A stretch of DNA of 64,000 nt from Rubritalea profundi. Its GTDB lineage: Bacteria; Verrucomicrobiota; Verrucomicrobiia; Verrucomicrobiales; Akkermansiaceae. Each line of letters begins with the position of its first letter. The stretch's first letter is position 1. Below are positions 12,463 to 56,944 of this stretch, one piece after another. Made by a program: the position numbers and the translations under genes. The notes under the pieces were generated by a model. The model was not told the origin of the DNA and did no database searches. It was given only the letters and a program-made list of their open reading frames with translations. The stretch is from NCBI RefSeq assembly GCF_002954445.1, contig NZ_MQWA01000001.1, forward strand, positions 1,709,781-1,773,780. Direction: 5' to 3'.

Positions 12463-12493
12463 CACTCCTCACTCCTCACTCCTCACTCCTCAC
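12463..12493 (+). repeat. Heptanucleotide tandem array (CACTCCT) over the ribD stop
   Basis: Four exact CACTCCT units and a partial fifth. The ribD stop codon (12476-12478, minus strand) lies inside the array, so the last codons of RibD are encoded by repeat sequence. Confidence 0.75.
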
Positions 12494-13579
12494 AACCACT
12501 CCGCTGATGAGAGTGTCTTGACCGATGGATCTGGAGTGGACTTCTTTGAGCGTGAGGCTGCTTTTAAAATGGTCACCTAGGCCAAAGCCGAAGTCTTCAC
12601 CACCGGTGATGATTGGAGCGTAAAAGAGCTGGTATTCATCGATGAGTTCGGCCTCGGCGAACTGGCGCATGAGTCGCCCACCGCATTCTAACAACACGCT
12701 ATTACAGCCTTTCTCAGCCAGATCTCGGAGCACTTCTGCAAGTGGTTTATCCTGATAGATGAGTGTTCTATTTTTAAACTCATCGGTGAATAAATGAAAG
12801 TCCTGCGGTAGGGATTCACGGCCAGTATGGGTGAGAACTACGCGCCACGGTTGTTCTTTTTCCGCTGCACCTTTCTCACTACGCAGCGTCAGGCGCGGAT
12901 TATCGCGACGCACTGTCTTGCCACCAACAATGATGGCATCGACCTGAGCACGTAGCTGATGGACGACCTCTCGTGACTCTGGACTGGTGAGCCACTGCCC
13001 CTCGCTCGGTGGTCTCGTGATGCGTCCATCCAGGCTCATGGCTGTCTTTGCTATCACCCAGGGAAGTCCGCTGGTGATGCGCTTGGCAAAGGGGCGCAGG
13101 AGCTTCTCGCATTCCTCGCGCAGCACCCCTGCTGTGACCTCAATCCCCTGCCCTCGTAAAAGTGTGTCGGCTGCACCAGCGTGTTTAGGGTTAGGATCCA
13201 CCGCTCCATAAACGACTCTCCGAATTTTATTTTCTAAAATCCCCGAGGTGCATGCTGGGGTTCTGCCAACAGTCGAGCAGGGCTCCAAAGTCACATAAAT
13301 CGTCGCGCCATGCAAAACTTCAGCACCATGTTTAGCCACCACGTCCGCGATCGCTTCACGCTCGGCATGAGGCAAGCCGGTACGATGGTGGTAGCCTGAT
13401 CCTAATTCCATTTCGTCCTTCACGACGACAGCTCCTACGGCAGGATTTGGGCTTGTGAGACCTATTCCTTTCCACCCTTCTTCTAGTGCTCTGAGCATCC
13501 ATTTTTCATCGTAATTTGAAGGTGACATTTGGCTGCTCGAAACTGCTAGATTTGGGGCTGTTTTGCTCTCATTATCCAT
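12476..13579 (-). CDS. ribD: Riboflavin biosynthesis deaminase/reductase
   Basis: Bifunctional enzyme for the second and third steps of riboflavin synthesis. The deaminase domain (about 24-165) has the zinc site His71-Ala-Glu73 with Cys101 and Cys110 in EPCSTVGRTPACTSG. The reductase domain (about 170-362) has WVIAKTAMSLDGRI, the ADAI-type strand VDAIIVGGKTVRRDNPRLT and LLECGGRLM for NADPH binding. 367 residues is normal. The first 20 residues are unconserved, so Met18 may be the true start. No FMN riboswitch was recognised upstream. The candidate origin lies directly upstream. Confidence 0.95.
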   Translation of the reverse strand: MDNESKTAPNLAVSSSQMSPSNYDEKWMLRALEEGWKGIGLTSPNPAVGAVVVKDEMELGSGYHHRTGLPHAEREAIADVVAKHGAEVLHGATIYVTLEPCSTVGRTPACTSGILENKIRRVVYGAVDPNPKHAGAADTLLRGQGIEVTAGVLREECEKLLRPFAKRITSGLPWVIAKTAMSLDGRITRPPSEGQWLTSPESREVVHQLRAQVDAIIVGGKTVRRDNPRLTLRSEKGAAEKEQPWRVVLTHTGRESLPQDFHLFTDEFKNRTLIYQDKPLAEVLRDLAEKGCNSVLLECGGRLMRQFAEAELIDEYQLFYAPIITGGEDFGFGLGDHFKSSLTLKEVHSRSIGQDTLISGVVVRSEE

Positions 13580-13834
13580 GTGAATAAGTGTGTGTAAGTC
13601 TTCGTTGTGTTGTTAATAAAGTGTGAATTGGTAATAACTGTGAATAAGTTTTGAGTGTTTTATTGGGATTAAGTCAACCTTATCCATACCACTCAAAAGT
13701 TATTCACAACACACTCACACCCACTTTCACTATAAGGTTGATAGAGTTACAGCCAAATTTAAGAGTTATTCACACGCTTAAGAAGAAGAATGTTTATCTC
13801 ATTTAAAAAAGATTATAATATACCGTGTGAACAA
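13572..13834. other. Candidate chromosomal replication origin (oriC)
   Basis: Four exact TTATTCACA sites, which differ from the DnaA consensus TTATCCACA by one base, lie at 13579-13587 and 13639-13647 (minus) and 13700-13708 and 13766-13774 (plus). The middle two form a 19-base inverted repeat with 18 matches (CACTCAAAACTTATTCACA against CACTCAAAAGTTATTCACA). Near-sites occur at 13680-13688 (TTATCCATA) and 13826-13834 (TTGTTCACA inverted). An AT-rich stretch (13792-13823) would suit an unwinding element. No gene lies in 13580-13985. parS sites eight kilobases away add support. Confidence 0.7.
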
Positions 13835-13985: not shown

Positions 13986-14588
13986 ATGAAAAACTCCATG
14001 ACCCCAGTCGTGATGGTCTTGGCATTGTCGTGCTCTACGCTCATTGCACAAGACTCCATTTCCAAAGCCCGTCAATCTCAAGCACGCAAAGTAGAGGCAT
14101 TTTACAAGCAAGCGGAACAAGCCTACCAAGATGGAGATCTCGAGAGATCGAAGTCAGCACTTCGGAATGTTTTTGCTATAGATCGCAACCATGGTCCCGC
14201 ATATGCTCTCGCACTGAAGCTAAAGCGTAGTGGCAATGAATTTAAAATCAAAGCCGGCCAGAGGCAATTAGTAGCCGTTATTCTACCGATGGTAGATTTC
14301 GATAGGATGCCATTGGGCGATGCTCTACGGATGTTGAGTACGCTTATAAAAGAAACGAGTAAGGACAAAGTGATCCCTAACTTTGTAATTCATGATAAAA
14401 GTAATACCTTGAAGGACAAACCCGTCACATTGAACATGAAGCAGGTTCCTGCGAATGTTGTGTTGGACTACCTCATGAACCTTAGCAACTCGACTGCTAA
14501 GGTTAACCAACACGCGATTAGCATCAAGCCTCGTGCTTCGCGTTCAGTTCCGGCAAAACGGGTGGCTAAAGAGGACGAAGGGTTCTAA
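13986..14588 (+). CDS. Exported protein with repeat-like helices and a secretin/TonB short N-terminal (STN)-like domain
   Basis: 200 residues. A signal peptide (about 1-22, ending LIA) is followed by helices resembling a tetratricopeptide pair (QAEQAYQDGDLERSKSALRN), then by a beta-alpha unit at about 105-183 (VDFDRMPLGDALRMLSTLI ... KPVTLNMKQVPANVVLDYL) that looks like the STN/secretin N-terminal fold. Such domains occur in secretins and in verrucomicrobial periplasmic proteins. No secretin barrel follows, so it may be an accessory periplasmic factor. No operon partner. Function not assigned. Confidence 0.6.
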   Translation: MKNSMTPVVMVLALSCSTLIAQDSISKARQSQARKVEAFYKQAEQAYQDGDLERSKSALRNVFAIDRNHGPAYALALKLKRSGNEFKIKAGQRQLVAVILPMVDFDRMPLGDALRMLSTLIKETSKDKVIPNFVIHDKSNTLKDKPVTLNMKQVPANVVLDYLMNLSNSTAKVNQHAISIKPRASRSVPAKRVAKEDEGF

Positions 14589-20651: not shown

Positions 20652-22515
20652 CTTGTTCGCGCTTCTTTTTATCGAGCCAGATGGAGAGTAAGGTCACATC
20701 TGCAGGAGTAATGCCTGTGATGCGCCCAGCCTGTCCAAGTGTTTGGGGGCGGATGGTAGAGAAGTTATGATTAGCTTCCTTCTTGAGCCCGCTGATCTCT
20801 GAGTAGTCAAGGTCGTCGGGGATTTTCTTGTGCTCCATTTTAGAGAGTCGCTCGACTTGCTTATGTTGTCGTACGATGTGCCCTTCATATTTAAAATCAG
20901 TTTCAACAACTGACCACAGATCGGCAGGGAATTTATCACGCATTTCCTGTGGGAGGTCTTGCCAAGAATTCTCAGCACGACGGAACCACTTGTTCAATCG
21001 CGTGGACTGGTAAGTTGTCTGACGTATGAACTCAGATGCTTCGGCTATGGTGGCTATTTTTTCTTCAGTGAATGTCTTGTGTTCATCACTGACGAGCCCC
21101 CTCTCGGCCGCTCTCGGTGTGAGGCGCAGATCCGAGTTGTCTTGGCGTAGCAGCAATCGATATTCAGCACGGCTGGTGAACATGCGGTAAGGCTCATTGC
21201 AGCCCTTGGTGACTAAGTCATCGATCATGACCCCGATGTAGGATTCATCGCGGCCTAGAATATAGGGATCTTCACCGCGCACTTTGAAGGCGGCGTTGGT
21301 TCCAGCCATGAGTCCCTGGGCTGCGGCTTCTTCGTAGCCAGAGGTGCCATTGATCTGCCCTGCAAAATAGAGGTTCTCTACCAGCTTTGTTTCTAAGGTT
21401 GGTAGCAATTGTGTCGGCGGACAGTAGTCGTATTCCACGGCGTAGCCTGGGCGGATGATCTCAGCATTCTCCATACCGACGATCGAGTGGATGAAGTCGA
21501 GCTGCACGTCATACGGGAGTGAGGTAGAAACTCCATTGATGTAGCACTCTAGGCTGTGGCGACCTTCAGGCTCAATGAAAATTTGGTGGCGTTCTTTCTC
21601 AGCAAACTTCACTACCTTGTCTTCGATTGATGGACAATAGCGTGGCCCTACAGACTCAATCTTACCTGAGTAGATAGGCGATTGATGCAGGTTGTTGGCT
21701 ATGATTTCGTGGGTCCTTGGATTGGTATAGGTAATCCAGCATGGAACTTGTTCCACGTGGAACGCTGGGTCGCCGAAAGGATTGAGAGTGAAAATGTCGT
21801 TGGGCTTCTTCGTTAAGGTGTGAGCCATGTAAGAGAAGTTAGACACTGGTGTATCACCATCTTGTCGCTCGCACTTCGAGTAGCCGATCGAGCGACCATT
21901 GATGCGGCATGGGGTTCCAGTCTTGAAACGATCCACCTCAAATCCGAGTTCTTTGAGGCTATCACTGACGGTGGAAATGGCGTCGCCCATGCGACCACCC
22001 TTTTCATTTTTGAGGCCAACATGCATCAAACCGCGCATGAATGTGCCTGCGGATAGGATGACTGATTTGGCTAGAATCTCCATTTCCAAGTTGGTGCGAA
22101 TACCATAGACTTGGTCGTTCTTGACTAGAATTTCAGCCACATTCCCTTGGTGCATATCGAGGTTTTCTTGACCCTCGATGATTCGCTTCATGCGGAATTG
22201 GTATGCTTTCTTATCGCACTGGGCTCGTGGAGCTCTGACGCTAGGTCCCTTTTTAGCATTGAGCATGCGGAATTGGATAGCTGTGGCATCTGTGTTTAGA
22301 CCCATGGCTCCGCCGAGCGCATCGATCTCACGCACTATGTGCCCTTTGGCGAGCCCACCAATCGCTGGGTTGCAGGACATAGCTCCAATGGTGTCGAGGT
22401 TCTGTGTGAGCATTGCGACTGAGCAGCCTAGGCGTGCGGCAGCCAACGCGGCTTCTACACCAGCGTGACCTGCACCAATGACGAGGACGTCGTATTCTTT
22501 CGGGTAGCGAAACAT
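20644..22515 (-). CDS. mnmG: tRNA uridine 5-carboxymethylaminomethyl modification enzyme MnmG
   Basis: FAD protein that, with MnmE, makes the cmnm5U modification at the wobble position of several tRNAs. 623 residues, full length. The FAD site is VIGAGHAGVEAA (Gly14-Gly19); also seen are IGAMSCNPAIGGLAKGH, RFKTGTPCRI, CPSIEDKV, YFAGQINGTSGYEEAAAQG and TSRAEYRLLLRQDN. MnmG (gidA) often lies near oriC. A parS site (21749-21764) is inside the gene and two more lie 59-98 bases upstream of its start. MnmE is not in the window. Confidence 0.97.
   Translation of the reverse strand: MFRYPKEYDVLVIGAGHAGVEAALAAARLGCSVAMLTQNLDTIGAMSCNPAIGGLAKGHIVREIDALGGAMGLNTDATAIQFRMLNAKKGPSVRAPRAQCDKKAYQFRMKRIIEGQENLDMHQGNVAEILVKNDQVYGIRTNLEMEILAKSVILSAGTFMRGLMHVGLKNEKGGRMGDAISTVSDSLKELGFEVDRFKTGTPCRINGRSIGYSKCERQDGDTPVSNFSYMAHTLTKKPNDIFTLNPFGDPAFHVEQVPCWITYTNPRTHEIIANNLHQSPIYSGKIESVGPRYCPSIEDKVVKFAEKERHQIFIEPEGRHSLECYINGVSTSLPYDVQLDFIHSIVGMENAEIIRPGYAVEYDYCPPTQLLPTLETKLVENLYFAGQINGTSGYEEAAAQGLMAGTNAAFKVRGEDPYILGRDESYIGVMIDDLVTKGCNEPYRMFTSRAEYRLLLRQDNSDLRLTPRAAERGLVSDEHKTFTEEKIATIAEASEFIRQTTYQSTRLNKWFRRAENSWQDLPQEMRDKFPADLWSVVETDFKYEGHIVRQHKQVERLSKMEHKKIPDDLDYSEISGLKKEANHNFSTIRPQTLGQAGRITGITPADVTLLSIWLDKKKREQDA
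21749..21764. promoter_or_regulatory. parS site inside mnmG
   Basis: TGTTCCACGTGGAACG contains the full 14-base palindrome GTTCCACGTGGAAC, the conserved ParB-binding core in many bacteria. It lies within the mnmG coding region. Confidence 0.82.
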
Positions 22516-22573: not shown

Positions 22574-22589
22574 TGTTCCACGTGGAACA
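22574..22589. promoter_or_regulatory. parS site upstream of mnmG
   Basis: Perfect 16-base palindrome TGTTCCACGTGGAACA in the gap between divergent mnmG and pdhA. ParB spreads from such sites for chromosome segregation. Confidence 0.88.
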
Positions 22590-22612: not shown

Positions 22613-22628
22613 TGTTCCACGTGGAACA
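22613..22628. promoter_or_regulatory. Second parS site upstream of mnmG
   Basis: A second perfect TGTTCCACGTGGAACA, 39 bases from the first, in the same 248-base gap. No gene or other structure was seen in the gap. Confidence 0.88.
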
Positions 22629-36046: not shown

Positions 36047-37333
36047 TTGGAAACTCCTCTGACAGAACACATCCGTCCTGGACACCCGTCGCCAGACCTC
36101 GCCGCCTACCAAAAACTAGGCGGCTACCAGGCGCTGCGTCGTGCCCTTACGGAAATGACTCCAACTGAGGTTATTGAGGCCGTAAAAGACTCGAACCTTC
36201 GCGGTCGCGGTGGCGCCGGATTTCCCGCTGGATTGAAGTGGAGCCTGGTGCCCAGTGGCGATGACGCGCCACGCCAGCGCTACCTCGTCTGTAATGCTGA
36301 CGAAATGGAGCCAGGCACCTTCAAAGACCGCTACCTGATAGAAGGGAATCCGCACCAGCTGCTAGAGGGAATCATGCTTGCAGCCTACGCCATCAAGGCC
36401 GATACCGCCTACATTTTCCTCCGAGCCGAATACACATGCTCGGAGCGAACCTTGCGTGAGGCCATAGCGGAGCTGTTCGCTGAAAACTTGTTAGGCGACA
36501 ACATTCTAGGCTCTAACTACAACCTAAACATCCATCTCCACACTAGTGCGGGTCGTTACATTTGCGGTGAGGAAACCGCCTTACTGAATGCTCTGGAAGG
36601 CAAACGCGCCGTGCCACGTGCCAAGCCACCTTTCCCGCCCCAAGTGGGTCTTTGGGGGCAGCCGACTATCGTGCAAAACGTCGAAACTCTCTGCTGTGTG
36701 CCGCACATCATCAATCACGGCGCGGATTGGTTCAAAGGTCTTAGCAAAACCAACAACAGCGGCACCAAAATCTACGGGGTCAGTGGCCGAGTCAAACGAC
36801 CGGGTCTGTGGGAACTCCCGCTAGGCACCACACTGCGAGAAATCATTGAGGAGCACGCGGGCGGCATGCTGGATGGCTACAAATTCCGTGGCGTCATCCC
36901 CGGTGGAGCTTCCACGGATTTCTTAGTAGAGGAACACCTCGACCTGCCACTCGACTATGAAACCGTCGCCGCAGCAGGCAGTCGCCTGGGCACTGGCACC
37001 ATGATCGTTCTCGACGACCGCACCTGCCCGATAGCCATGGTGCATAACTTGGAAACCTTCTTTGCCCGCGAATCTTGTGGCTGGTGCACCCCTTGCCGCG
37101 ATGGCCTGCCATGGATCGAGAAAACCCTGAGCGCCATCGAGGAGGGGAGGGGTGTCGCTAGCGATATCGACCTTCTCCACCAACACTCCCGGATGCTTGG
37201 CCCCGGACGCACTTTCTGCGCCTTCGCTCCCGGAGCCGTCGAACCCCTGCAGAGCGCCCTCAAATACTTCGCCGACGACTTCGAGCAACACATCTCCGAA
37301 AAACGCTGCCCTTACAAACATCTTCAATCTTAA
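36047..37333 (+). CDS. nuoF: NADH-quinone oxidoreductase subunit F
   Basis: 428 residues, binds NADH, FMN and the [4Fe-4S] cluster N3. GRGGAGFPAGLKW is the FMN/NADH loop, and ESCGWCTPCRDG provides cluster ligands with a further Cys near CAFAPGA. Starts at a TTG (36047); no ATG precedes the conserved part in frame. Runs directly into nuoG. Confidence 0.95.
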   Translation: METPLTEHIRPGHPSPDLAAYQKLGGYQALRRALTEMTPTEVIEAVKDSNLRGRGGAGFPAGLKWSLVPSGDDAPRQRYLVCNADEMEPGTFKDRYLIEGNPHQLLEGIMLAAYAIKADTAYIFLRAEYTCSERTLREAIAELFAENLLGDNILGSNYNLNIHLHTSAGRYICGEETALLNALEGKRAVPRAKPPFPPQVGLWGQPTIVQNVETLCCVPHIINHGADWFKGLSKTNNSGTKIYGVSGRVKRPGLWELPLGTTLREIIEEHAGGMLDGYKFRGVIPGGASTDFLVEEHLDLPLDYETVAAAGSRLGTGTMIVLDDRTCPIAMVHNLETFFARESCGWCTPCRDGLPWIEKTLSAIEEGRGVASDIDLLHQHSRMLGPGRTFCAFAPGAVEPLQSALKYFADDFEQHISEKRCPYKHLQS

Positions 37334-40049
37334 ATGGCCACGATCACCATAGACGGCAAATCCTACCAAGCCGATGCTTCGCAGAACCTTCTGCAGACAG
37401 CATTGCAGCTGGGGTTCGACCTACCGTATTTCTGCTGGCACCCCGCCATGGGATCTGTCGGGGCGTGCCGCCAATGTGCGGTCAGGCAGTTCCGCGATGA
37501 TGACGACACCACTGGCATGATTGTGATGGCTTGCATGGTGCCAGTTAGCGATGGACTGCGCATTTCCATCGACGACCCCGAAGCCAAAGAATTTCGCAAG
37601 GGCGTGGTCGAGTGGCTGATGACCAACCATCCGCATGACTGCGCAGTGTGTGACGAAGGAGGCGAGTGTCACCTACAGGACATGACAGTGATGGCTGGCC
37701 ACTCCAAGCGTCGTTATAGATTCCAGAAACGCACTCACCGTAACCAATACCTAGGCCCCTTCATCAATCACGAGATGAACCGCTGCATCCAATGCTACCG
37801 CTGTGTGCGTTTCTACAAAGACTATGCTGGTGGCAGAGATCTCGATGTTTTTTCCTCCCGCAATCGGGTTTACTTTGGGCGTCATGAAGAAGGAGTTTTA
37901 GAAAACCCGTTCAGCGGAAATCTGGTCGAAGTTTGTCCCACTGGCGTCTTCACCGATAAGCCTTTCAAAGCCCAGCCCACCCGTAAGTGGGACCTCAGCA
38001 CCGCAGCCTCCATCTGCCCTCATTGCAGCCTTGGTTGCAATACTATCGTAGGCGAACGCTATGGAAAATTCCGCCGAGTGCTCAACCGCTACCACCACGA
38101 CCTCAACGGCTATTTCCTCTGTGATAGAGGACGTTTTGGCTCAGCCTTTGTGAATAGCGACAAACGTAGCAGGCAGCCCCAATGGAGGGAAAATGGACAG
38201 ACGGTTAGCCTCGACAAACAAACCATCACCGACTTGTTAGCTACTGAAATTTTAGACGGTAAAAAAGTGATTGGCATCGGCTCGCCGCGTGCCTCAATGG
38301 AAGCCAACTATGCTCTGAGAACTTTGGTGGGTGAAGACGCCTTTTTTAACGGACTGTCAGAGAACGATGCCGCCATTTCCAAGCAAATCATCAGCATCTA
38401 CCAACACACCCACATCGCTTCTTTGCGTGACGCCGCAGAATCCGATGCCGTTTTTGTTCTCGGTGAAGACCTCACCAATACCGCACCACGACTAGCCTTG
38501 GCTCTGCGACAAGCGGTGCGCAATACGCCGCTGGAAGACGCCGATAAACTCAAGATCCCTCGCTGGCACGCTAGGGCTGTGGCAGATGTCATCCAGCACC
38601 GCCACGGCCCGCTACACCTCGCCTCCATCGCTGCGACTCAGCTCGATGATATCGCCACCAGCAGACATTTGGCCGCACCCGCCGACCTAGCACGCATCGG
38701 TTTCGCCATCGCCCATGAGTTAGACTCCGACGCACCAGCCGTAGCAAACTTAACATCCGAACAAGCCGCCTACGCGAAACAAGTCGCCCATGACCTCCGC
38801 CAAGCGAAACGTCCGCTGGTGGTTGCTGGATCAAGCCTTGGCAGCGTCGCCTTGGTGCAAGCGGCTGGGCAAATCACCAAGGCATTGAAGCAAAATGAAG
38901 CTCGCATTTCTCTGATTGTGGCCGAAGCCAACACGCTCGGTGTGGCCTTGCTTGGAGACAAGAGCATCAGTAGTGCCATTCAGGAGAAAGCCGACACCAT
39001 CATCGTGTTAGAGAACAACATTTTCCGCCGATCCACCGATCATCTGATAAATAGAATGCTCAAATCGGCCAACTGCGTGATCACCATCGATCACCTCGAG
39101 AATGCCACAACTCAGCAAGCCCACGCATCGCTCCCCGCTGCCACTTTCACCGAAGCAAGTGGAACTTCCATCAACAATGAGGGACGTGCGCAGAGAAGCT
39201 TTCAGGTCGTGCTCGCAAGCGATCCTGTGCAAGCTAGTTGGCGTTGGTTACGTGATCTTATGGTCGCGGCAAACAAGCAACAAACTGGCGCATGGGAAAC
39301 TCTCGACGACGTTCTCGCTTCTTTAGTAACTGAATTCCCCAAGCTTGCAAAACTTTCAGAAGTAGCACCCAACTCCAAGTGGCGTCAGAGCAGTCAAAAA
39401 GTCGCCCGAGCCTCGCGTCGTTCTGGTGGCCGTACCGCCATTCTGGCGACCGTGCACGAACCCAAGCCACCAAGCGACCCCGACGCTCCGCTTTCTTTTA
39501 CCATGGAAGGCAACCCGGCCTCCTCATCAACCGCCCTCAACAACCGCTACTGGTCACCTGGTTGGAATTCAGTGCAGGCCCTCAATCAATACCAACAAGA
39601 AATCGGCGGCCCGCTGCGAGGTGGCGACCCCGGCATCTGCCTCTTTGAAAAAAAAAGACGACAACAGCGCGTGGTTTACTGAAATTCCACCAGCATTCAC
39701 ACCTGAGAACGACAAGCTCCTCGCCCTCCCTCGGCACCAGATCTTCGGCACTGAAGAGCTCAGTAACCAATCCTCATCCGTCGCCGAACGCATCCCAATT
39801 CCAGCCATCGGCCTTAACCCTCAAGAAGCTGCCAAACGTAAGCTAAAAGAAGGCTCCACCGTCACCATCACAGCAAACAACAACGAACACAAACTTTCCC
39901 TAACCATCACCCCCGAACTACCAATCGGCACCGCAGCTTTACCCACAAACATCGTCGAGGCTAATACGCTCATTGGGGTGCGCCTTGGTGAAGAAGAATC
40001 AGCGTCCTCTAACAAACAAAGCGCCGATTTTCGGAGCACTCCAAAGTAA
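37334..40049 (+). pseudogene. nuoG: NADH-quinone oxidoreductase subunit G, frameshifted near its 3' end
   Basis: Iron-sulfur subunit with a molybdopterin-oxidoreductase fold. Ligands are visible for N1b (CWHPAMGSVGACRQCAV), the HxxxCxxCxxxxxC site (HPHDCAVCDEGGEC), CIQCYRC with VCPTGVF, and an N7-like CPHCSLGC. The first frame stops at 39682 because an A9 run (39648-39656) has one base too many; with A8 it continues DDNSAWFTEIPPAFTPENDK to TAA at 40047-40049 (904 residues). The stop overlaps the nuoH start by one base. Homopolymer error, mutation, or transcriptional slippage on the A9 could explain it. Confidence 0.87.
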
Positions 40050-41002
40050 TGTCCCCAACCTTCCAGAATATCCTCATCGCGGCCCTCATCCTGTTCTGCA
40101 TGCTGAACATGGCAGCCTTGATGATATGGATTGAGCGACGCTTGCTGGCGTTGATGCAGGATCGATTGGGACCTAACAGAGCTGGGCCATTCGGCTTGTT
40201 AGTTATCCTAGCTGATATGATCAAGATTTTCACTAAGGAAGACTGGATCCCACCATTTTCAGACAAGGTGGTGTTTGTCCTCGCGCCCGCCATCATCATG
40301 GCTACTACTCTGCTTTCGTTCGCCGTGATTCCTTTTGCCCCAGGAATTCAAGTCATCGACCTCAACATTGGCCTACTCTATGTGCTGGCGATGTCGTCGA
40401 TAGGCATTTACAGCATCGTTTTGGCGGGCTGGGCATCCAACAGTAAGTATTCGCTGTTAGGTGGATTAAGAATGTCAGCCCAGATGTTCAGCTACGAGGT
40501 CTTCATGGGGCTTTCCTTGCTCGGAGTGGTGGCTATGGCTGGCACTTTCAATCTGCGCGAAATCGTCGATTCTCAGCAAAGACTATGGTTCGTGGTGCCG
40601 CAGTTCCTTGGCTTTGTGATCTTCATGATTGCCGGGCTGGCGGAAACCCACCGTTTGCCTGCCGACATGCCCGAGGCCGAGAGCGAGCTGATTGCCGGCT
40701 ACCATGCCGAATACTCAGGTATGAAATTCGGCATGTTTTTTGTCGGTGAATACGTCGGGGTGATCTTGATTTCCTCACTGATGGTGGTGCTCTTCTTCGG
40801 CGGATGGCACGGCCCTTTCCTGCCCCCATTAGTATGGTTTGCACTTAAGCTCGGCGCCTTCCTGTTCTTCTTCATCCTCTGCCGCGCTGCTATGCCGCGG
40901 CCACGCTACGACCAATTCATGGCGCTCGGCTGGAAAGTTCTGCTCCCTCTATCGCTGCTCAACGTCCTAGTCACCGGAGCAATCATTTTAGCCAACACCT
41001 AA
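40049..41002 (+). CDS. nuoH: NADH-quinone oxidoreductase subunit H
   Basis: 317 residues, eight membrane helices; lines the quinone channel. Conserved strings: [21 protein letters not shown], the [20 protein letters not shown] loop with its Glu residues, and [25 protein letters not shown] overlaps the nuoG stop (TAATG). Confidence 0.96.
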
Positions 41003-41029
41003 CACACGCCAAAGGCACTAACTCCCCCC

Positions 41030-41057
41030 TTATCACTTATCACTCTACACTTATCAC
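41030..41057 (+). repeat. Heptanucleotide tandem repeat (TTATCAC)
   Basis: Four 7-base units, TTATCAC twice, TCTACAC, TTATCAC, in the short gap between nuoH and nuoI. Similar in design to arrays at 6951, 10102 and 12463. Confidence 0.65.
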
Positions 41058-41065
41058 TTCTAACC

Positions 41066-41581
41066 ATGCTTTCTCACATCCGCAGCCTAGCACTGGTATT
41101 CCGGCATTTATTCCGGAAGAACATCACGATCCAGTATCCCGAGGAAAAGGCTCGCCTCTCGCCGCGTTATCGTGGTCGCATCATCCTAAGTCGCGACCCC
41201 GATGGAGGCGAGCGCTGTGTGGGCTGCCAACTCTGCGCGGTGGTGTGCCCGGTCGACTGCATTGCCCTGCAAGCCGCCGAGGACGAGAACGGCAGACGCT
41301 TCCCTGAGTTTTTCCGCATCAACTTCTCCCGCTGCATCTACTGCGGCCTCTGCGAAGATGCCTGTCCGACCTACGCCATCCAACTCACACCCGATGTGGA
41401 AATGGCGGAATACGATCGGCCTAATCTGGTTTACGAAAAAGAAGACCTGCTGATCTCAGGCGAAGGGAAATACCCCGGTTACAATTACTACAAAGTAGCG
41501 GGACTCTCGATCGGCGGAAAAGACAAGGGTGAGGCTGAAAATGAGTCACCTCCCATCAACCCAAAGGATCTTATGCCATGA
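41066..41581 (+). CDS. nuoI: NADH-quinone oxidoreductase subunit I
   Basis: 171 residues with two [4Fe-4S] motifs, [15 protein letters not shown] and [15 protein letters not shown], binding N6a and N6b. Sits between the peripheral arm and the membrane arm. Its stop overlaps the start of nuoJ (ATGA). Confidence 0.95.
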
Positions 41582-42099
41582 TCAACCTCTTTTACATCGC
41601 GGCATTGGTTGCCATAATCGCCACTGTATTGGCAATCACCCGCCACCATGCGGTGCATGCCTTGCTCTACTTGATCGTGTCGTTACTCGCGGTGGCGCTG
41701 GTCTTTTTCACGCTAGGCGCGCCCTTCGTGGCAGCGCTTGAAGTCATCATTTATGCGGGAGCGATCCTCGTGCTTTTCTTGTTTGTGATGATGATGCTCA
41801 ACCTGGGACAGGACGCCAAAGAGCAGGAACGCGAGTGGCAACCCCTAAGAATTTGGATAGGACCAGCATTACTCTCCTGCATTTTGTTAGCTCTTATTAT
41901 CCACGCGATCATGGGGGAGGGGAGTGCATCCGTGGTCACTGAGGAGGTTGGGCCCAAGGCGGTCGGCAGTTTACTCTTCGGCCCGTATATGATCGCCGCC
42001 GAACTGGGAGCCTTCCTGCTCATGGCTGGCGTGGTTGGAGCGTCGCATTTGAGACGCCGTGAGTTTCAAAGCGAAATCACTGGGAAGGAGGAATCGTGA
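41578..42099 (+). CDS. nuoJ: NADH-quinone oxidoreductase subunit J
   Basis: 173 residues, five membrane helices. The helix-3 region [20 protein letters not shown] carries the pi-bulge segment of this subunit. Overlaps nuoI by 4 bases and nuoK by 4. Confidence 0.94.
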
Positions 42100-42404
42100 G
42101 CGCCGTGCCTATCAATCACGTGCTGATTCTAGCCGCTATCTTGTTCAGCGTTGGCCTTACTGGGGTGCTGGCGCGGCGTAACATCATCTTCATGCTGGTC
42201 TCTGTAGAAGTCATGCTGAATGCCGCGGGGCTCGCATTTGTCGCGGCGGGTGCGCGCTGGCAGCAGGCAGATGGTCAGGTGATGTTCCTATTCATTCTCA
42301 CCATGGCATCAGCTGAAGTAGCGGTGGGGTTGGCGCTCATTCTCCACCTTCATTGGCGTCGTCTCTCGCTCGACTCTGACACCCTTAACAAGATGAAAGG
42401 ATAA
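42096..42404 (+). CDS. nuoK: NADH-quinone oxidoreductase subunit K
   Basis: 102 residues, three helices, with the conserved Glu pair in [19 protein letters not shown] and [15 protein letters not shown] start inside the nuoJ stop overlap, with a strong ribosome binding site (GGAAGGAGG, just before). Confidence 0.94.
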
Positions 42405-42406
42405 CC

Positions 42407-44290
42407 ATGCTCAACCAACTCTGGCTAGTGCCGACACTCCCACTGCTCGGCTTCCTGATCCTCGCACTGTGCGGATCGCGCTGGAGTCGTGGGTTGGTGG
42501 CTACGGTTGGTTGTGGCTCGATCGGTCTATCCGCCTTAGTGGCCACCGCTGCAGGATTTGATCTACTAACAACGAATAGCGAAAACGCCTCTTTTACTCA
42601 ACATCTCTGGAACTGGTTCGAGGTCGGCGGGCTTTCGCTAAGCATCGGTCTGCACCTTGATGCGCTATCGCTGTTGATGATCTTGGTGGTGACTTGGGTG
42701 GCCTTCTTCATCCATATCTATGCCAGCGAATACATGGCGAAGGAAGGCTATAGCCGCTTCTTTGCCTATCTCAACCTATTCGTCTGCGCCATGCTGGTTC
42801 TGGTGTTGGCTGATAACCTATTGATGCTTCTGCTAGGCTGGGAAGGTGTGGGGCTGTGCAGTTATTTACTCATCGGTTTTTGGTATAGCGATCCCGCCAA
42901 TGGCGCTGCAGCGCGCAAAGCTTTTGTGGTAACACGGGTGGGGGACACAGCGCTGATGGTCGGCATTTTACTGCTTTTCAAACATCTCGGCACGCTCGAT
43001 ATCGGGCAAATTCTATCCACAGCAAACGCTCAATGGCAGCCAGGATCCACCATCGCTATCACCGCCGCCGCCCTGTTGCTGGGGGGTGCTGTGGGGAAAT
43101 CTTCCCAGCTACCTCTGCAAACATGGCTGCCCGATGCGATGGCTGGCCCCACCCCCGTGAGCGCTCTAGTGCATGCCGCCACCATGGTGACCGCAGGGGT
43201 CTATCTGATCGCCCGGATGCATGGCATTTTCCTACTCGCGCCAGTGGTGATGGGTGTGGTGGCCGTGTTAGGCGCGACCACAATGTTAGTGGCTGGCTGC
43301 AGTGCGCTGGTACAAAGCGACCTAAAACGCGTGCTGGCGTATTCAACTATCAGTCAAATCGGCTACATGTTTCTCGCGTTGGGAGTGGGAGCCTGGACGG
43401 CGGCGATGTTTCACTTCATGACCCACGCCTTTTTCAAAGCCCTGCTCTTCCTGGGAGCTGGCGCGGTGATTCATTCCCTGAATGATCAAAAAGATATGTT
43501 CAAGATGGGGGGATTGCGGAAAAAACTGCCCGCCGTGTTCTGGACTTTTCTGATAGGGTCGGCGTCGTTGGCGGCACTCCCTTTGGTCACCTCGGGGTTC
43601 TACAGTAAGGAGCTCATCCTCTGGAGTGCCTGGGCCTCTCCTCATGGTCATCCAACTCTCTGGGCCGCGGGGATTGTTGGAGCCTTCATCACTGCTCTCT
43701 ACACGACTCGTGCAGTGATTCTGACCTTCTTCGGCAAAGTAAAAACAGAAGTAAGCCACCAACCTGGAGCGCGCATGGTGCTACCGCTGTGCATTCTTGC
43801 AGCTCTCTCAACCGTGGCGGGTTTGCTACAGACTCCTCACAGCCTCGGTCACCTGCATGCCTTTTCTGATCTGCTAGAAACTGCTCTGCCTGTCACTCAC
43901 CTCAATGGCAGTTCTTCCGTAGAAATCACGCTACAAGCCGTGGCTGTGGCGATTGTTCTAGCGGGAGTCGCACTGGCTTACTGGCTCTATCAAAAAGCGC
44001 CACATCTCCCTGAGCGCATCGCATCTGGCTGGGGGAAACCTATACGTAAAGCTTGGCTGGCAGGTTGGGGGTTTGACTGGATTTACGATCAGCTGCTGGT
44101 GAAACCCATCGTCGCTGTGGCCCAGTTAAACCGACGCGACATCATCGATCTCTTCTACACGGGCCTCGCCAGCTTTGCGCGTTTACTCAATTTCCTGCTC
44201 AGTGCCAGCCAGACCGGACGCATGCGTTGGTATGCGGCGGGCATTTCCGCAGGCACCATTTTCATCTTCCTAATCGTTTATTTCACATGA
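42407..44290 (+). CDS. nuoL: NADH-quinone oxidoreductase subunit L
   Basis: 627 residues, antiporter-like proton-pumping subunit with the long lateral helix. Diagnostic: LLGWEGVGLCSYLLIGFWY, KSSQLPLQTWLPDAMAGPTP and VHAATMVTAGVYLIARM, and SDLKRVLAYSTISQIGYM. The end has the amphipathic segment and a final membrane anchor. Starts two bases after nuoK. Confidence 0.96.
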   Translation: MLNQLWLVPTLPLLGFLILALCGSRWSRGLVATVGCGSIGLSALVATAAGFDLLTTNSENASFTQHLWNWFEVGGLSLSIGLHLDALSLLMILVVTWVAFFIHIYASEYMAKEGYSRFFAYLNLFVCAMLVLVLADNLLMLLLGWEGVGLCSYLLIGFWYSDPANGAAARKAFVVTRVGDTALMVGILLLFKHLGTLDIGQILSTANAQWQPGSTIAITAAALLLGGAVGKSSQLPLQTWLPDAMAGPTPVSALVHAATMVTAGVYLIARMHGIFLLAPVVMGVVAVLGATTMLVAGCSALVQSDLKRVLAYSTISQIGYMFLALGVGAWTAAMFHFMTHAFFKALLFLGAGAVIHSLNDQKDMFKMGGLRKKLPAVFWTFLIGSASLAALPLVTSGFYSKELILWSAWASPHGHPTLWAAGIVGAFITALYTTRAVILTFFGKVKTEVSHQPGARMVLPLCILAALSTVAGLLQTPHSLGHLHAFSDLLETALPVTHLNGSSSVEITLQAVAVAIVLAGVALAYWLYQKAPHLPERIASGWGKPIRKAWLAGWGFDWIYDQLLVKPIVAVAQLNRRDIIDLFYTGLASFARLLNFLLSASQTGRMRWYAAGISAGTIFIFLIVYFT

Positions 44291-45756
44291 TGCTTCCTTT
44301 GCTCATTCTCGTTCTCCTGCTGGGTGGCCTGTTAGTATGGGCCGCAGGGAGAATAAGTGCCTCGGCGACTCGCTGGACGGCGCTGACAGTGCTATTGCTA
44401 GACGCTGCTCTGGTGGGATGGATTTTCTGCGCTATCAATGATTCCCCAGCAGACGGGCGCTGGCTGATGACCTATGAAGTCGACTGGATCACCGCGCTCA
44501 ACGTCCAGCTTTACCTAGCAGTCGACGGCTTCAGTTTGGCATTGATCTTACTCACCATTTTCCTCGGCATTGTTGCGGTGCTAGCATCGTGGAAAGGCAT
44601 TACCGAGCGCGTTGGATTTTTCTATTTTAATCTACTCTGGGTGCTGGCCGGCACGCTGGGAGTATTCATGGCGCTCGACCTCCTCGCTTTTTTCTTCTTC
44701 TGGGAGCTAATGGTAGTGCCAATGGTGTTTCTAATTGCGATCTGGGGGCACGAGAACCGTCGTTATGCTGCCATCAAGTTCTTCATTTTTACTCAGGCCA
44801 GTAGCCTGTTGATGTTAGTGTCGATTGTGGGGCTGTATGCGCTGCACGGCACGTTCCGCTATGACGACTTGCTGGGTACTGAAATGCCAGAGGGCACTGC
44901 TTTTTGGCTGATGCTGGGATTCTTTGTAGCCTTCACAGTCAAGCTCCCAGCCTTCCCATTCCACACCTGGCTCGCCGACGCCCACACCGAGGCTCCGACT
45001 GCGGGCAGTGTCATTCTCGCGGGGCTGATGCTGAAAACGGGTGCATATGGGCTGGTGCGCATTGTCGTGCCTTTGTTTCCTGATGCCGCACGCGATTTTG
45101 CACCGATTGCTCTGGCGATGGGGGTCATCGGCATTCTCTACGGAGCTCTGTTAGCCTTGGCTCAGACTGACCTGAAACGGCTCATTGCTTACACTAGTGT
45201 GAGCCACATGGGCTTTGTGTTAGTGGGGGTGTTTTCATGGAATAGCTGGGCGGTGCAAGGCGTGCTGATGCAGATGATTTGCCACGGTATCAGCACTGGT
45301 GCCTTGTTCATTATCGCTGGGGCGCTGCAGGACCGCATGCACACGCGGGATATCCGTCGCATGGGGGGCCTGTGGGGTGTCACTCCGAAGCTCGCGGCAT
45401 TCGGACTCGTGTTTGCTCTGGCATCGCTAGGATTGCCGGGTATGGGGAATTTTATAGGTGAATTTCTCATCCTGCTAGGCAGCTTCCAAATCAGCCCGAC
45501 CATTGCCATTATAGCTGCGTTATCATTGCCAGCCTCCGCAATCTACTCACTGAGGATTGTCCAACGTACCTTCCATGGCCAGCAGGCAGAAAGGTGGAGC
45601 GTTACGGATTTCGACCGACGTGAAATAGGCGTGATGGCGGTGCTAGTCATAGCCATCCTGTGGCTAGGTCTGATGCCCCAGCCGGTGTTAGATCTAGTGT
45701 CGCCGTCTCTCACAGAAACCTTGGAAAGAACTCAGCAGAATGGAGGTGCTCAGTGA
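44287..45756 (+). CDS. nuoM: NADH-quinone oxidoreductase subunit M
   Basis: 489 residues from ATG 44287, which overlaps the nuoL stop (ATGA); an earlier TTG at 44227 is unlikely. Antiporter-like pump with FFWELMVVPMVFLIAIWG, KLPAFPFHTWLADAHTEAPT and DLKRLIAYTSVSHMGFVL. Confidence 0.95.
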   Translation: MMLPLLILVLLLGGLLVWAAGRISASATRWTALTVLLLDAALVGWIFCAINDSPADGRWLMTYEVDWITALNVQLYLAVDGFSLALILLTIFLGIVAVLASWKGITERVGFFYFNLLWVLAGTLGVFMALDLLAFFFFWELMVVPMVFLIAIWGHENRRYAAIKFFIFTQASSLLMLVSIVGLYALHGTFRYDDLLGTEMPEGTAFWLMLGFFVAFTVKLPAFPFHTWLADAHTEAPTAGSVILAGLMLKTGAYGLVRIVVPLFPDAARDFAPIALAMGVIGILYGALLALAQTDLKRLIAYTSVSHMGFVLVGVFSWNSWAVQGVLMQMICHGISTGALFIIAGALQDRMHTRDIRRMGGLWGVTPKLAAFGLVFALASLGLPGMGNFIGEFLILLGSFQISPTIAIIAALSLPASAIYSLRIVQRTFHGQQAERWSVTDFDRREIGVMAVLVIAILWLGLMPQPVLDLVSPSLTETLERTQQNGGAQ

Positions 45757-47195
45757 CAGCTGCCGACCTCCAAGCTCTGCTCCCTCTACTCATCCTAGCT
45801 GCGACTTCCTTGTTTATTTTACTGGGAGCGGCTTTCCTACCAGGGCACCGCACTGCTTACCTGATCACGATTGTCGGTATGCTTGTTGCACTCGCCTCAA
45901 TCCGCGCTGCTGTTGCGCAAGCACCTCACTTGGTTGGTGAGATGTTGGTTATAGACGCATTCGCACTGTTCTATATAGGCCTCCTCCTGTTAGCCGCGTC
46001 GGTGGTGACGACTTTTGCTTATGACTACCTGAAAAAAATCCATCTTAAAGCCGAGGAATTCTACGCCCTGCTGACCCTAGCCACTCTGGGTGGGTGTGTG
46101 CTTGCCGCCAGCAACCACTTCGCCACCATGTTCCTTGGTATCGAGCTGCTTTCAGTTCCGCTCTACGTGCTGATCGCTTACGTTTTCCGTAAGAACGACT
46201 CGCTAGAGGCGGCACTAAAATACCTCATCCTCGCCGCCACAGCTTCCGCCTTCCTACTCTTTGGCATGGCACTGATTTACGCAGAACTGGGAACCATGCA
46301 TTTCGATGGCCTCCGCGACAACCTGCAAGCTGGCATCGGGGAACGTCGTGGTTTGTTACTCGCTGGCATCGCCCTGATGATCACGGGCTTTGGCTTCAAA
46401 CTGGCTGTCGCCCCTTTCCACATGTGGACACCTGACATTTATCAAGGAGCCCCGGCCCCCGTAACAGCCTTCATAGCCACCATATCGAAAGGTGCCATGG
46501 TCGCCTTGTTGTTGCGTTTCTTTGGTGCGATCCCAAGCGATCAAAGCGGTGCTGTGTTTACCGCCATTTCCTGCATCGCCGTAGCCTCCATGACTATCGG
46601 TAATCTACTCGCTCTGCGACAAACCAATGTAAAGCGCATCATGGCCTACAGCTCGATCGCCCACCTTGGTTATGTCTTGGTGGCATTCCTTTCAGGTGGC
46701 CCCCAAGCCATCGAATCAGCGACCTTCTACATCGTCAGCTACAGCATTGCCACGCTGAGTGTGTTCGGTTTGTTAGCTGCCCTCTCGAACGCAGACGGTG
46801 AACCAGAAACCCTTGCTCCTTTCAAGGGCTTGTTCTGGCGAAACCGTTCGGCGGCGGTTTTCCTCAGCCTCGCTATCTTCTCGCTCATCGGTATTCCCCT
46901 AACTAGTGGCTTCTGGGCAAAACTTTTCATCTTCATCGCAGGCATTCAGTCAGGGCTATGGGTTCTGGTGATCCTACTAGCCCTCAATAGCGCAATTGGC
47001 CTCTACTACTATCTCCGCATTCTCTTCGTGCTCTACTCGCCGACAGACGAACTTTCAGAACTGTCCTCTACTACATCCCCATTGAATAGATCCAGCTTTG
47101 TTATCCTAGCCGCACTCACTCTCCTCAGCCTAACAATCGGCATTCATCCTGCTCCACTTTTAGAGCTGGTGAAAATGTTAGTCACCACACTGTAG
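45753..47195 (+). CDS. nuoN: NADH-quinone oxidoreductase subunit N
   Basis: 480 residues from a GTG at 45753 that overlaps the nuoM stop and is preceded by GGAGG. Antiporter-like pump with FLGIELLSVPLYVLIAY, KLAVAPFHMWTPDIYQGAP and NVKRIMAYSSIAHLGYVL. Last gene of the operon. No clear terminator was seen in the 82 bases before the CBS gene. Confidence 0.95.
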   Translation: MTAADLQALLPLLILAATSLFILLGAAFLPGHRTAYLITIVGMLVALASIRAAVAQAPHLVGEMLVIDAFALFYIGLLLLAASVVTTFAYDYLKKIHLKAEEFYALLTLATLGGCVLAASNHFATMFLGIELLSVPLYVLIAYVFRKNDSLEAALKYLILAATASAFLLFGMALIYAELGTMHFDGLRDNLQAGIGERRGLLLAGIALMITGFGFKLAVAPFHMWTPDIYQGAPAPVTAFIATISKGAMVALLLRFFGAIPSDQSGAVFTAISCIAVASMTIGNLLALRQTNVKRIMAYSSIAHLGYVLVAFLSGGPQAIESATFYIVSYSIATLSVFGLLAALSNADGEPETLAPFKGLFWRNRSAAVFLSLAIFSLIGIPLTSGFWAKLFIFIAGIQSGLWVLVILLALNSAIGLYYYLRILFVLYSPTDELSELSSTTSPLNRSSFVILAALTLLSLTIGIHPAPLLELVKMLVTTL

Positions 47196-53437: not shown

Positions 53438-56400
53438 TTACTCCATCCACTTCGCCAGAGCCATCTCTAGGGAGTCGGATTTGCGGACGAGGAAGGACTC
53501 TGAGGCGGCGAGGGTGGCTCGGTCGCCCATGCTGTTCTGGATGTGGATCAGTACGGAGGTCTTGCCGGGGTTTGACTGGAGAATTCCTTTGATCTCGTGA
53601 AGGTCTTTTTCGTCGTGTTTGGATGTCCAGAGGGTGATGTTGAGCGCTTTTTTGTCGGCACATGTGACGCGTTTTCCTGCTAAGCCTTCGATTTTTGAGC
53701 CTGAGACACGGCGCGATTCTGGGTTGCGATCATCTTCTTGCACGTTTCCGAAAAGGCGAATGACGTTGCCGGGTTCTAACAAGCCTTCTTCTCGGGCGGG
53801 GCTGTAGCTTTCACTCCAAGCGAGGATTTCTTTGGTGCCTGTGAAATCTTCTAGGTGAATCACACCGAAGGGCTTTCCTGCTTTGGTGACTTTGTGCTCG
53901 ATGTGTTTGATCATGCCGGCGAAGCGGTGGCGCTTGCGGCGGTCGGAGAGGTCGAGTTCATCAATGATGCCGATACGGGTGTACATGTCGACGTCGATAA
54001 TGCCACGGTAGGCATCGAGCGGGTGGCCTGAGATGTAGAATCCTAGTAGTTCTTTCTCAGTGTCAAGGCGTTGCTCTTTTGGCCATTCTATGAGGATACG
54101 CGGGGCATCATCGGGTTCAGGTGCTGAGCCAAAGTCGACGGTGTCGAAAAGTGAGACCTGGCCAGAGGCGCGGTCTTTGTGGGCTGACGAAGCAGAGGCG
54201 ATCACGTTTTCGACTCTAGCATCTAGGCTAGAGCGGTTTTCTTTGGTCCAATCGAAGGCACCAGCCTTCACGAGGTTCTCGAGAATGCGCTTGTTGACTG
54301 CCTTGGTGTCGAGTCTGTTGGAAAAGTCTTTCATCGACTCGAATGGGCCGTTGGCGTCACGGTCAGCAACGGCAACTTTCATAGCGCCTTCACCTACGTT
54401 CTTGATGGCGGAGAGTCCGTAGCGGATCGCCATTTTTCCAGATGCGAGCTTTTCTGGGCAAAATCGTAGTTTGGATTTGTTGACGTTTGGTGGCAAGACC
54501 TCGATCTTCATGTTGTGACACTCGGCGATGAAAACGGAAATTTTCTCAGTGTTGTTGATCTCGTTAGAGAGCAGACCACAGAGGAATTCGACGGGGAAGT
54601 TAGCTTTGAGGTAGGCGGTCCAGTAGGAGATGTGACCGTAGCAAGCGGAGTGGGATTTGTTGAAACCGTAACCCGCGAATCCAGCGATCTTGTCGAAAAT
54701 CTTGTTAGCTGTTGTTTTATCAATTTGGTTAGTCTCGGCTGCACCCTTGATGAAAATTTCACGCTGTTTCGCCATCTCAGACGGCTTCTTTTTACCCATC
54801 GCACGACGGAGAATATCCGCACCACCGAGCGAGTAGCCCGCGAGCACTTTTGCCGCATTCTGCACCTGCTCCTGATAAATCATCACGCCATAGGTGTCGC
54901 CACAGATGGTCTCTAACAGCGGGTGTTCATAGTCGACAGTGGTGATCCCTTTTTTCACAGAGATCATCTCATCGATGTACTGCATCGCACCTGGGCGATA
55001 AACCGCCAAAAGGTCAATCACGTCTTCGATCTTGTCGATTCCATACTTCTTACAGGTATCGACCATGCCGCCGGATTCCAGTTGGAACACGCCCATGGTT
55101 TCACCACGGTTGAGTAGCGCGAGGGCTGGGACGTCATCGAGTGGGACTTTGGTGATGTCAAAGCCCGGTGTGTGTGGGGTGATGTGGTCAACAGCGTCTT
55201 GGATGACGGTGAGGTTCTTTAGGCCTAGAAAGTCCATCTTGAGTAGCCCAATCTCAGTGATCGCACCCATGTCCGCTTGTGAAACAACTTCACCTTCTTT
55301 CGCACGTGCAAGTGGCACGTGGCGGTCGAGATCACCATCACCTATCACCACACCAGCGGCGTGGACACCGGTGTTACGCTTGAGGCCTTCTAGCTTGATG
55401 GCGTATTTCCAAAGTTCTTGGTAGGTGCTCGAGGCGGCAATCGCATCGCGCAGTTCTTCCTTGAGGTCGTATTCGCCTTGGAGTTTAACTCCGGGAAGTG
55501 TCTCGATCATTTTGGCGAGATGAGCTGCGTCGCCAAAGGAAACACCCATCACACGGGCCACGTCGCGCAGTACTGATTTTGCTCCGAGCGTGCCGTAAGT
55601 GATGATGTGGCAAACGCATCGCTCACCGTATTTTTTACGCACGTAGTCGATAACCTCTGGTCGGCGGGTCTGGCAGAAGTCAATATCTACGTCGGGCGGG
55701 GAGACACGCTCAGGGTTGAGGAATCGCTCGAACAGGAGACCAAAACGCATCGGGCAGATGTCGGTGATCTGCATCGCGTAGGCGACCAGTGATCCTGCAG
55801 CCGATCCACGACCTGGACCTACGGGGATTTTTTGGTCGAGAGCCCAGAGGATGAAATCGGCAGTGATCAAGAAGTACGAGGCGAAGCCTAGACTGTTGAT
55901 AATCTCCGTTTCGTACTCGAGGCGTTCGTCGAGGATCTTCCAGACTCCAGCGACATCGGTGTCGTAGACGCCACAGAGCTCTTCGATCTTTTCCTCTGGG
56001 TAGCGCATCTGCACACCTTCTTTACAAACGCGCTTGAAGTACTCTTCACGCGGGCTGCCGTCTGGTGCTTCGAATTGCGGGTATTTGTCCGAGCTTGTCG
56101 GATCTAACGCAAGCTCGACATTACATTTTTCAGCAATTTCTAGGGTGTTGTCACAGGCGCCGGGTACGTCTTTGAAAAGCTCGCGCATTTCAGCAGGAGA
56201 CTTGAAGTAAACTTGGTCTGAGTAGCTTTTGCGGTTCTCATCGAGAATCAAGCAACTCTCACCGATACAGATCAGAACGTCGTGCGCTTCGTGTTCATCT
56301 TGCTTAAGAAAGTGGACGTCGTTGGTGGCGACCACCTTGAGATCAAATTCGTCAGCGAGCTGGCGCAGTGAGGCTATGGTTGCTGGCTGGGTCTCGAGGG

Positions 56401-56944
56401 CATGGTCCATCAGCTCAATATAGAAATCCTCAGCTCCGAAAATTTCTTTCAGCTCAGCCACTTGGGCTCGGGCTTGCTCCATGTCATTCTTCACTAACCA
56501 TTCCTGGATTGGGCCATCATCATCGCCAGAGAGGCAGATGATCCCTTCTGAAAATTCACGTAGAGTGTCGCGGTCGACTCGTGGTTCGCCGAAGTAATCC
56601 CCATCGAGGTGGCCAGCAGAGACGAGTTTGGTCAGGTTATCCCAGCCGATTTTATTCTTGGCGAGCAGGGTGAGGTGAGTCGAGCGCTTGCGACCAGGGA
56701 TATCCTTCTTTGACGAAAGGGCGGCGGGCGCGAGATAGACCTCACAGCCAAGAATCGGTTTGATTCCTTCACCCGTCATTTTCTGGTAAAACTCAACGGT
56801 ACCAAAGAGGTTACCGTGGTCGGTCATAGCGACCGTGCTCATGCCGTTATCTTTGACTGCACCAGCGAGCTCCTTGATACGGACGATGGAGTCTTTGATG
56901 GAGTATTCTGTGTGGACGTGAAGGTGAACGAATGAGTCTGACAT
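53438..56944 (-). CDS. dnaE: DNA polymerase III alpha subunit
   Basis: Replicative polymerase, 1,168 residues, full length for DnaE. PHP domain with HLHVHTEYS and MTDHGNLFG; palm with GPGRGSAAGSLVAY and the catalytic PDVDIDF, plus the DxD-type partner KMDFLGL; then YQEQVQNAAKVLAGY, an HhH region, and the C-terminal OB fold (FAGMIKHIEHK) and tau-binding region. Single gene; promoter in the gap 56945-57021. Confidence 0.97.
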   Translation of the reverse strand: MSDSFVHLHVHTEYSIKDSIVRIKELAGAVKDNGMSTVAMTDHGNLFGTVEFYQKMTGEGIKPILGCEVYLAPAALSSKKDIPGRKRSTHLTLLAKNKIGWDNLTKLVSAGHLDGDYFGEPRVDRDTLREFSEGIICLSGDDDGPIQEWLVKNDMEQARAQVAELKEIFGAEDFYIELMDHALETQPATIASLRQLADEFDLKVVATNDVHFLKQDEHEAHDVLICIGESCLILDENRKSYSDQVYFKSPAEMRELFKDVPGACDNTLEIAEKCNVELALDPTSSDKYPQFEAPDGSPREEYFKRVCKEGVQMRYPEEKIEELCGVYDTDVAGVWKILDERLEYETEIINSLGFASYFLITADFILWALDQKIPVGPGRGSAAGSLVAYAMQITDICPMRFGLLFERFLNPERVSPPDVDIDFCQTRRPEVIDYVRKKYGERCVCHIITYGTLGAKSVLRDVARVMGVSFGDAAHLAKMIETLPGVKLQGEYDLKEELRDAIAASSTYQELWKYAIKLEGLKRNTGVHAAGVVIGDGDLDRHVPLARAKEGEVVSQADMGAITEIGLLKMDFLGLKNLTVIQDAVDHITPHTPGFDITKVPLDDVPALALLNRGETMGVFQLESGGMVDTCKKYGIDKIEDVIDLLAVYRPGAMQYIDEMISVKKGITTVDYEHPLLETICGDTYGVMIYQEQVQNAAKVLAGYSLGGADILRRAMGKKKPSEMAKQREIFIKGAAETNQIDKTTANKIFDKIAGFAGYGFNKSHSACYGHISYWTAYLKANFPVEFLCGLLSNEINNTEKISVFIAECHNMKIEVLPPNVNKSKLRFCPEKLASGKMAIRYGLSAIKNVGEGAMKVAVADRDANGPFESMKDFSNRLDTKAVNKRILENLVKAGAFDWTKENRSSLDARVENVIASASSAHKDRASGQVSLFDTVDFGSAPEPDDAPRILIEWPKEQRLDTEKELLGFYISGHPLDAYRGIIDVDMYTRIGIIDELDLSDRRKRHRFAGMIKHIEHKVTKAGKPFGVIHLEDFTGTKEILAWSESYSPAREEGLLEPGNVIRLFGNVQEDDRNPESRRVSGSKIEGLAGKRVTCADKKALNITLWTSKHDEKDLHEIKGILQSNPGKTSVLIHIQNSMGDRATLAASESFLVRKSDSLEMALAKWME

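Follow-up and report, generated by a model that had tools for sequence, protein, structure and literature searches.

Is the chromosomal origin among a cluster of DnaA-boxes beside ribD?

The intergenic DNA between ribD and an open reading frame at 13986 raises the question of whether this chromosome is replicated from a site that does not adjoin dnaA and, if so, how DnaA would open it. We analysed a 64-kb stretch of DNA (the window, C1:1709781-1773780; coordinates below are those of the window unless a contig is named, and features given without a strand have none assigned) together with the whole genome of 4,167,407 bases in four contigs. Region 13572-13834 is very probably the chromosomal origin (oriC). 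As the original prediction had stated, four exact matches to the DnaA-box TTATTCACA lie within about 200 bases, at 13579-13587 (minus strand), 13639-13647 (minus), 13700-13708 (plus) and 13766-13774 (plus), and together span 196 bp. In the ORF list, the ribD ATG begins with the last base of the first box. The inner pair forms part of a 19-nt inverted repeat with one mismatch (13639-13708; arms 13639-13657 and 13690-13708), again as predicted. The fourth box, which could be aligned with relatives, is DUE-proximal and faces an array of triplets on the minus strand (13778-13798). An AT-rich flank had been noted too, and the 40-mer at 13783-13822, which overlaps the array and is the proposed unwinding element, is indeed 85% A+T; by composition only, one other place in the window reaches this value. 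Beyond the AT-rich stretch, a TTGTTCACA box (13826-13834, minus strand) differs from TTATNCACA by one mismatch and is also present in Rubritalea marina (L063).

On one side of the site is ribD (12476-13579, minus strand; Pfam RibD_C, 1.3e-47), which has no part in the proposed mechanism. The gene on the other side (13986-14588) had been labelled an STN-domain gene, a label that was not borne out, as a Pfam search returned no STN match and only two weak matches to other families, below cut-offs, at E-values up to 1.

A chance cluster of 9-mers has to be considered, because AT-rich intergenic DNA raises the rate of such words. The rate originally quoted for a given 9-mer, about one per 130 kb per strand, needs correction in that it holds for both strands together. 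The window contains five copies of TTATTCACA (the fifth is remote from the cluster, at 60225) against a shuffle mean of 0.33, and none of 100 shuffles reached five. Genome-wide there are 44 copies, or approximately one per 95 kb counting both strands, compared with 19 for the reversed control. Nowhere else in the 4.17-Mb genome do three or more copies fall within 1 kb, the nearest pairs elsewhere being 231 and 333 bp apart; a search of the whole genome for an equally dense cluster found none. A looser box, TTWTNCACA, was also counted and rejected as a measure: it occurs seven times in the window versus 4.05 expected, and eight shuffles reach seven. As this count is not clearly raised across the window, the signal is the TTATTCACA cluster.

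GC skew and parS sites place the origin near the cluster

GC skew was calculated for forty 20-kb stretches across the contig, sampled about every 100 kb, and fitted with two breaks. The skew was mostly negative before the region of the site and positive after it, with a sign change at ∼1.65-1.72 Mb that coincides with the site (1.7235 Mb) within the 100-kb sampling. The best fit had its origin break at 1.65 Mb, only 0.07 Mb away from the site, and its terminus break at 3.76 Mb; signs agreed in 37 of 40 stretches. The score was 3.535 with the origin fixed at the site versus 0.589 with the origin fixed at dnaA. Finer sampling in 20-kb steps gave mixed skew from ∼1.34 to 1.72 Mb. The cumulative minimum, which had been proposed as a check, fell at ∼1.66 Mb in this series, with a second, slightly shallower minimum at the site. 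Given the mixed local skew, skew by itself locates the origin only to ∼100 kb.

The parS sites that had been noted 8 kb from the candidate origin were recovered. With up to two mismatches allowed, the consensus parS occurs at four places in the genome, two as single sites elsewhere and two as a close pair of TGTTCCACGTGGAACA (22574-22589 and 22613-22628) about 9 kb from the site. A third, weaker parS-like site with three mismatches to the consensus lies inside mnmG (21749-21764).

In agreement with the prediction that this origin does not adjoin dnaA, dnaA is located at C1:3546760, 1.82 Mb from the site, and parB at C1:3952246, ∼1.93 Mb away; each is ∼0.2 Mb from the fitted terminus. Adjacency to dnaA is common for bacterial oriC but does not define it.

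The element is conserved in relatives

A search for ribD in named genomes returned 23 loci, among which that of R. marina DSM 17716 was closest (67% identity). Upstream DNA of the window and 12 of these loci was aligned, revealing a shared AT-rich part, TTC repeats, a DnaA-box facing the repeats, two GTTCCAC motifs and a distal TTATTCACA-type box; the window and R. marina (L063) lack the GTTCCAC motifs. In most aligned relatives, two GTTCCAC-type motifs ∼22 nt apart adjoin the box (e.g. L072:1450-1551). GTTCCAC is part of one half of the parS of this lineage, which raises the question of whether these motifs are weak DnaA-boxes or ParB half-sites.

A model built from the 13 aligned sequences (R1) matched 14 of the 23 ribD loci, the other nine giving no match at E 0.01, and detected a single copy of the element in each of 62 genomes among 239 sampled from the order. 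With a wider model built from 71 sequences (R2), 161 of 244 sampled genomes of the family matched, two of them (G077 and G291) twice. Across the phylum, R2 matched 20 of 337 genomes, 14 within the family; two of the six other matches were strong. In G233, which belongs to the same genus as the window, the element is identical in sequence to that of R. marina, which suggests that this genus is Rubritalea. This conservation in relatives, together with the shuffles, leaves chance clustering with a negligible probability.

No R1 or R2 match was found in the g2 genomes (a genus that is probably Akkermansia) among those searched. A related array and box are nevertheless present near the inferred ribD start in all six g2 genomes inspected (L248-L253). 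There they lie on the strand opposite to ribD, whereas those of the window share the ribD strand, and the main box-to-triplet spacing is longer in at least five of the six.

Could the cluster serve DnaA titration or a DnaA-regulated promoter (a datA-like site or control of ribD) and not replication initiation? One box touches the ribD start codon. Genomic context was counted in 60 genomes that carry the element and have a main dnaA match; for DnaA and for RibD, the main match alone was taken per genome. In 18 of the 60, the RibD_C match and the element were 0.6-1.2 kb apart, which would also fit such a role. In the other 42, however, the RibD_C match was farther away or on another contig, yet the element was kept, with one match per genome; it is thus not merely a feature of ribD. 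Skew change and parS also coincide with the element, and we consider a titration or promoter site very unlikely. Left out of these counts were weaker RibD_C paralogues, none of which is near an element, and weaker DnaA-family matches, one of which, in G195 (E 1.3e-7, 253-aa frame), is on the contig of the element, 48 kb away.

In the same 60 genomes, dnaA was at least 652 kb from the element along the record in five and on another contig in 55, a result that in drafts allows a moderate distance. The circular distance between dnaA and the element in five complete or nearly complete genomes ranged from 0.65 to 2.63 Mb; the position of dnaA with respect to the origin is therefore not constant. 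Exact parS was found in 18 of 46 family genomes searched and was absent from the other 28. In all 18, every exact copy shares the contig of the element and lies 3.9-12.9 kb from it.

Skew in complete relatives was sampled every 245-320 kb. In G123, 20 of 20 signs fitted and the best break fell inside the sampling interval of the element. In G103, 17 of 20 signs fitted, the break was again in the interval of the element, and the score was 1.038 for the element versus 0.900 for dnaA. Two genomes were ambiguous. In G207 the best break was at ∼0.40 Mb, and the element (0.842) scored lower than dnaA (1.042). For G100, the best break (0.796) was 0.65 Mb from the element, which scored 0.656 compared with 0.577 for dnaA. 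For G026 (genus g2), whose record starts at dnaA, all 20 stretches fitted a break at 1.07-1.22 Mb, and the array upstream of ribD is at 1.11 Mb. Together, the unique box cluster, the skew change, the parS pair and the conservation in relatives support the candidate as a chromosomal origin.

A triplet array beside the DnaA-box resembles DnaA-trios with C at the centre

Box and trios have a defined relative polarity in E. coli and B. subtilis. H. pylori (PMC8235120) and C. difficile accounts, in the parts available, agree in placing 5'-CTA-3' on the complement of the bound strand. Read in the manner of the published basal unwinding system (BUS), starting at the box at 13766, the predicted bound strand is, 3' to 5', GCG AAT TCT TCT TCT TAC AAA TAG. 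After GCG there are seven in-phase trios with the centres A, C, C, C, A, A and A, the C-centred ones at 13781-13789. In the available text of PMC8287927, a BUS is defined as a DnaA-box with three or more consecutive 3'-NAN-5' trinucleotides on the complementary strand, no more than 16 nt beyond the box; the usual box-to-trio distance is 10-13 nt, and an A-centred BUS was found in 1755 of 2070 predicted origins. The first trio of the window is 3 nt from the box, within the 16-nt limit.

Trios were counted in relatives by anchoring on the box column alone, which gave 76 rows, 66 of them unique, after five g2 rows with different box spacing had been dropped. This replaced an earlier count by a regular expression that placed 68 of 76 rows and was circular, as it demanded C or A. 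At the centres of trios 2-5 in the 66 distinct origins (n = 264) we observed C 215 times, A 41, T 8 and G 0, a share of C that is inflated because the copies were found by models trained on such arrays (R1 on TTC-rich ones); the excess of A over T and G at the centres other than C should suffer less from this bias. First bases of the same trios were T in 201 cases, A in 52, G in 10 and C in one, and third bases were T in 251, C in nine and A in four. All four centres were A or C in 63 of 66 arrays. Seven of the eight T centres came from L238 and L246, in which the array is shifted by one base, and the eighth from L245. Trio 2 was centred on C in 35 origins, on A in 30 and on T in one; both the C and the A state are present within each of the genera g3, g4, g5 and g6, suggesting repeated swaps.

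We propose that DnaA binds the strong boxes of the site and that an oligomer would extend from the box at 13766-13774 along the minus strand over the trinucleotides at 13778-13798. By capturing trio bases, DnaA would melt the adjacent AT-rich stretch and admit the helicase. The trios are mostly 3'-N(C/A)T-5', and three of the seven in the window are C-centred; the exocyclic amino group common to A and C is probably what DnaA reads. The array probably functions as C-centred DnaA-trios, and an oriC opened through such a C-centred trio step is, as a whole, a likely explanation of the locus.

Alternatively, the origin may be real and the TTC/GAA array something other than a DnaA-trio tract: a spacer, the tract of another protein, or the complement of opposite-strand trios loaded from the box at 13826. 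The published A-centred rule, (.A.){3,}, is passed by only 14 of 66 arrays, and by the window solely through TAC AAA TAG, 15 nt from the box, so that its C-centred trios could be spacer; an A-centred phase also exists on the other strand. With A or C allowed at the centre, the same three-trio rule is passed by 66 of 66 arrays. The distance from array to box is nearly constant across copies, and the centres vary between C and A, with G absent and T rare. As C-to-T changes are more frequent than any other kind, the rarity of T counts against an array that is not read as trios. Trios on the other strand of the window would be separated from the far box by more than 16 nt, and we ranked that version second because its loading box is too far away. 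Overall, a non-trio array is possible but unlikely, and C-centred DnaA-trios are the reading we prefer.

In L292 (∼1456-1575; G676, of the same class and, by its kinship label, another order), two box-plus-TTC arrays face each other across an AT-rich stretch, and the far box of the window (13826-13834) likewise has A-centred triplets adjoining it. Such arrangements possibly represent one unwinding module per strand.

DnaA residues that contact trio bases are conserved

We aligned the DnaA of this genome to 8btg. Asn187, Ile190, Arg202 and Glu228 are kept, Ile193 is replaced by Val, and the equivalent of B. subtilis Asn196 is Gly. Compared by eye, equivalents of N187, I190, R202 and E228 are kept in 15 of 15 DnaA strings, with an insertion between them in the G026 protein. 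According to the available text of the B. subtilis cryo-EM study (PMC10721633), Asn187 holds the amino group of the central trio base, Arg202 and Glu228 hold G at the first position and Asn196 contacts the third base. The same source reports that C at the centre of trio 1 gave an unwinding rate in vitro about equal to that of A, that a central C supported growth in vivo better than G or T, and that, in its authors' view, DnaA homologues might be able to read various sequences. Three points weigh against a simple transfer to the present array: the first trio base in the elements counted here is mostly T, not the preferred G; the residue equivalent to Asn196 is Gly; and in H. pylori, a conserved central A was not sufficient for trio function, as far as the consulted part of PMC8235120 describes it.

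Comparison with other bacterial origins

The site resembles the B. subtilis BUS (consensus 3'-GAT-5') in having a strong DnaA-box followed by in-phase trinucleotides and AT-rich DNA, in the third trio base being mostly T and in the retention of N187, I190, R202 and E228. It differs in that the centre is mostly C instead of A and the first base mostly T instead of G; compared with the usual BUS, the box is closer to the trios than 10-13 nt and the origin is not next to dnaA. E. coli oriC lies between gidA and mioC. Here, mnmG (gidA) is likewise close, 7-9 kb from the site; in contrast to E. coli, however, it is not adjacent, parS is nearby and the triplet array is different. That gidA adjoins E. 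coli-type oriC is also stated in the available part of PMC10225481.

Origins of 12 mouse-gut strains, including A. muciniphila YL44, have been placed by skew, parS and coverage and were not systematically at dnaA (PMC10197239); a bacterial origin apart from dnaA thus has precedent. Those origins were likewise defined by skew and parS, whereas the portion of that account at hand gives no origin sequence or trio array and does not specify the departing strains. Among the titles and abstract openings retrieved in a literature search, none reports the sequence of this origin or naturally occurring C-centred trios.

We think it fairly probable that in the family of the window (probably Akkermansiaceae in GTDB) and some other Verrucomicrobiota, DnaA melts oriC through natural 3'-N(C/A)T-5' trios by reading the shared amino group, and that searches for a central A miss most such origins. 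C-centred trios may explain part of the predicted origins without an A-centred BUS among the 2070 of PMC8287927, judging from the part of that study available. The swap of A and C at the trio centre, with G absent and T rare, would provide evolutionary evidence on the single-stranded reading by DnaA, and is the pattern that the 2023 base-capture work would predict. The analysis also gives an origin position for a family whose complete records in some cases begin at dnaA, about a megabase from the skew break (G026); where the origin is placed affects growth rates estimated from read coverage as well as genome conventions.

Other features of the window and genome

A gene for the DNA polymerase III alpha subunit (53438-56944, minus strand) is situated 40 kb away from the proposed origin. 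Genes of complex I, encoding NuoF, NuoG and three subunits of antiporter type, occupy 36047-47195, in a GC-richer stretch, and the open reading frame at 60903-62720 combines a protein kinase domain with a laminin-G-like lectin domain. Elsewhere in the genome, the 20-kb stretches starting at 400001, 600001, 900001 and 1100001 (G000:C1) have a GC content of 0.29-0.36, compared with ∼0.40-0.53 in the other samples, and are possible islands.
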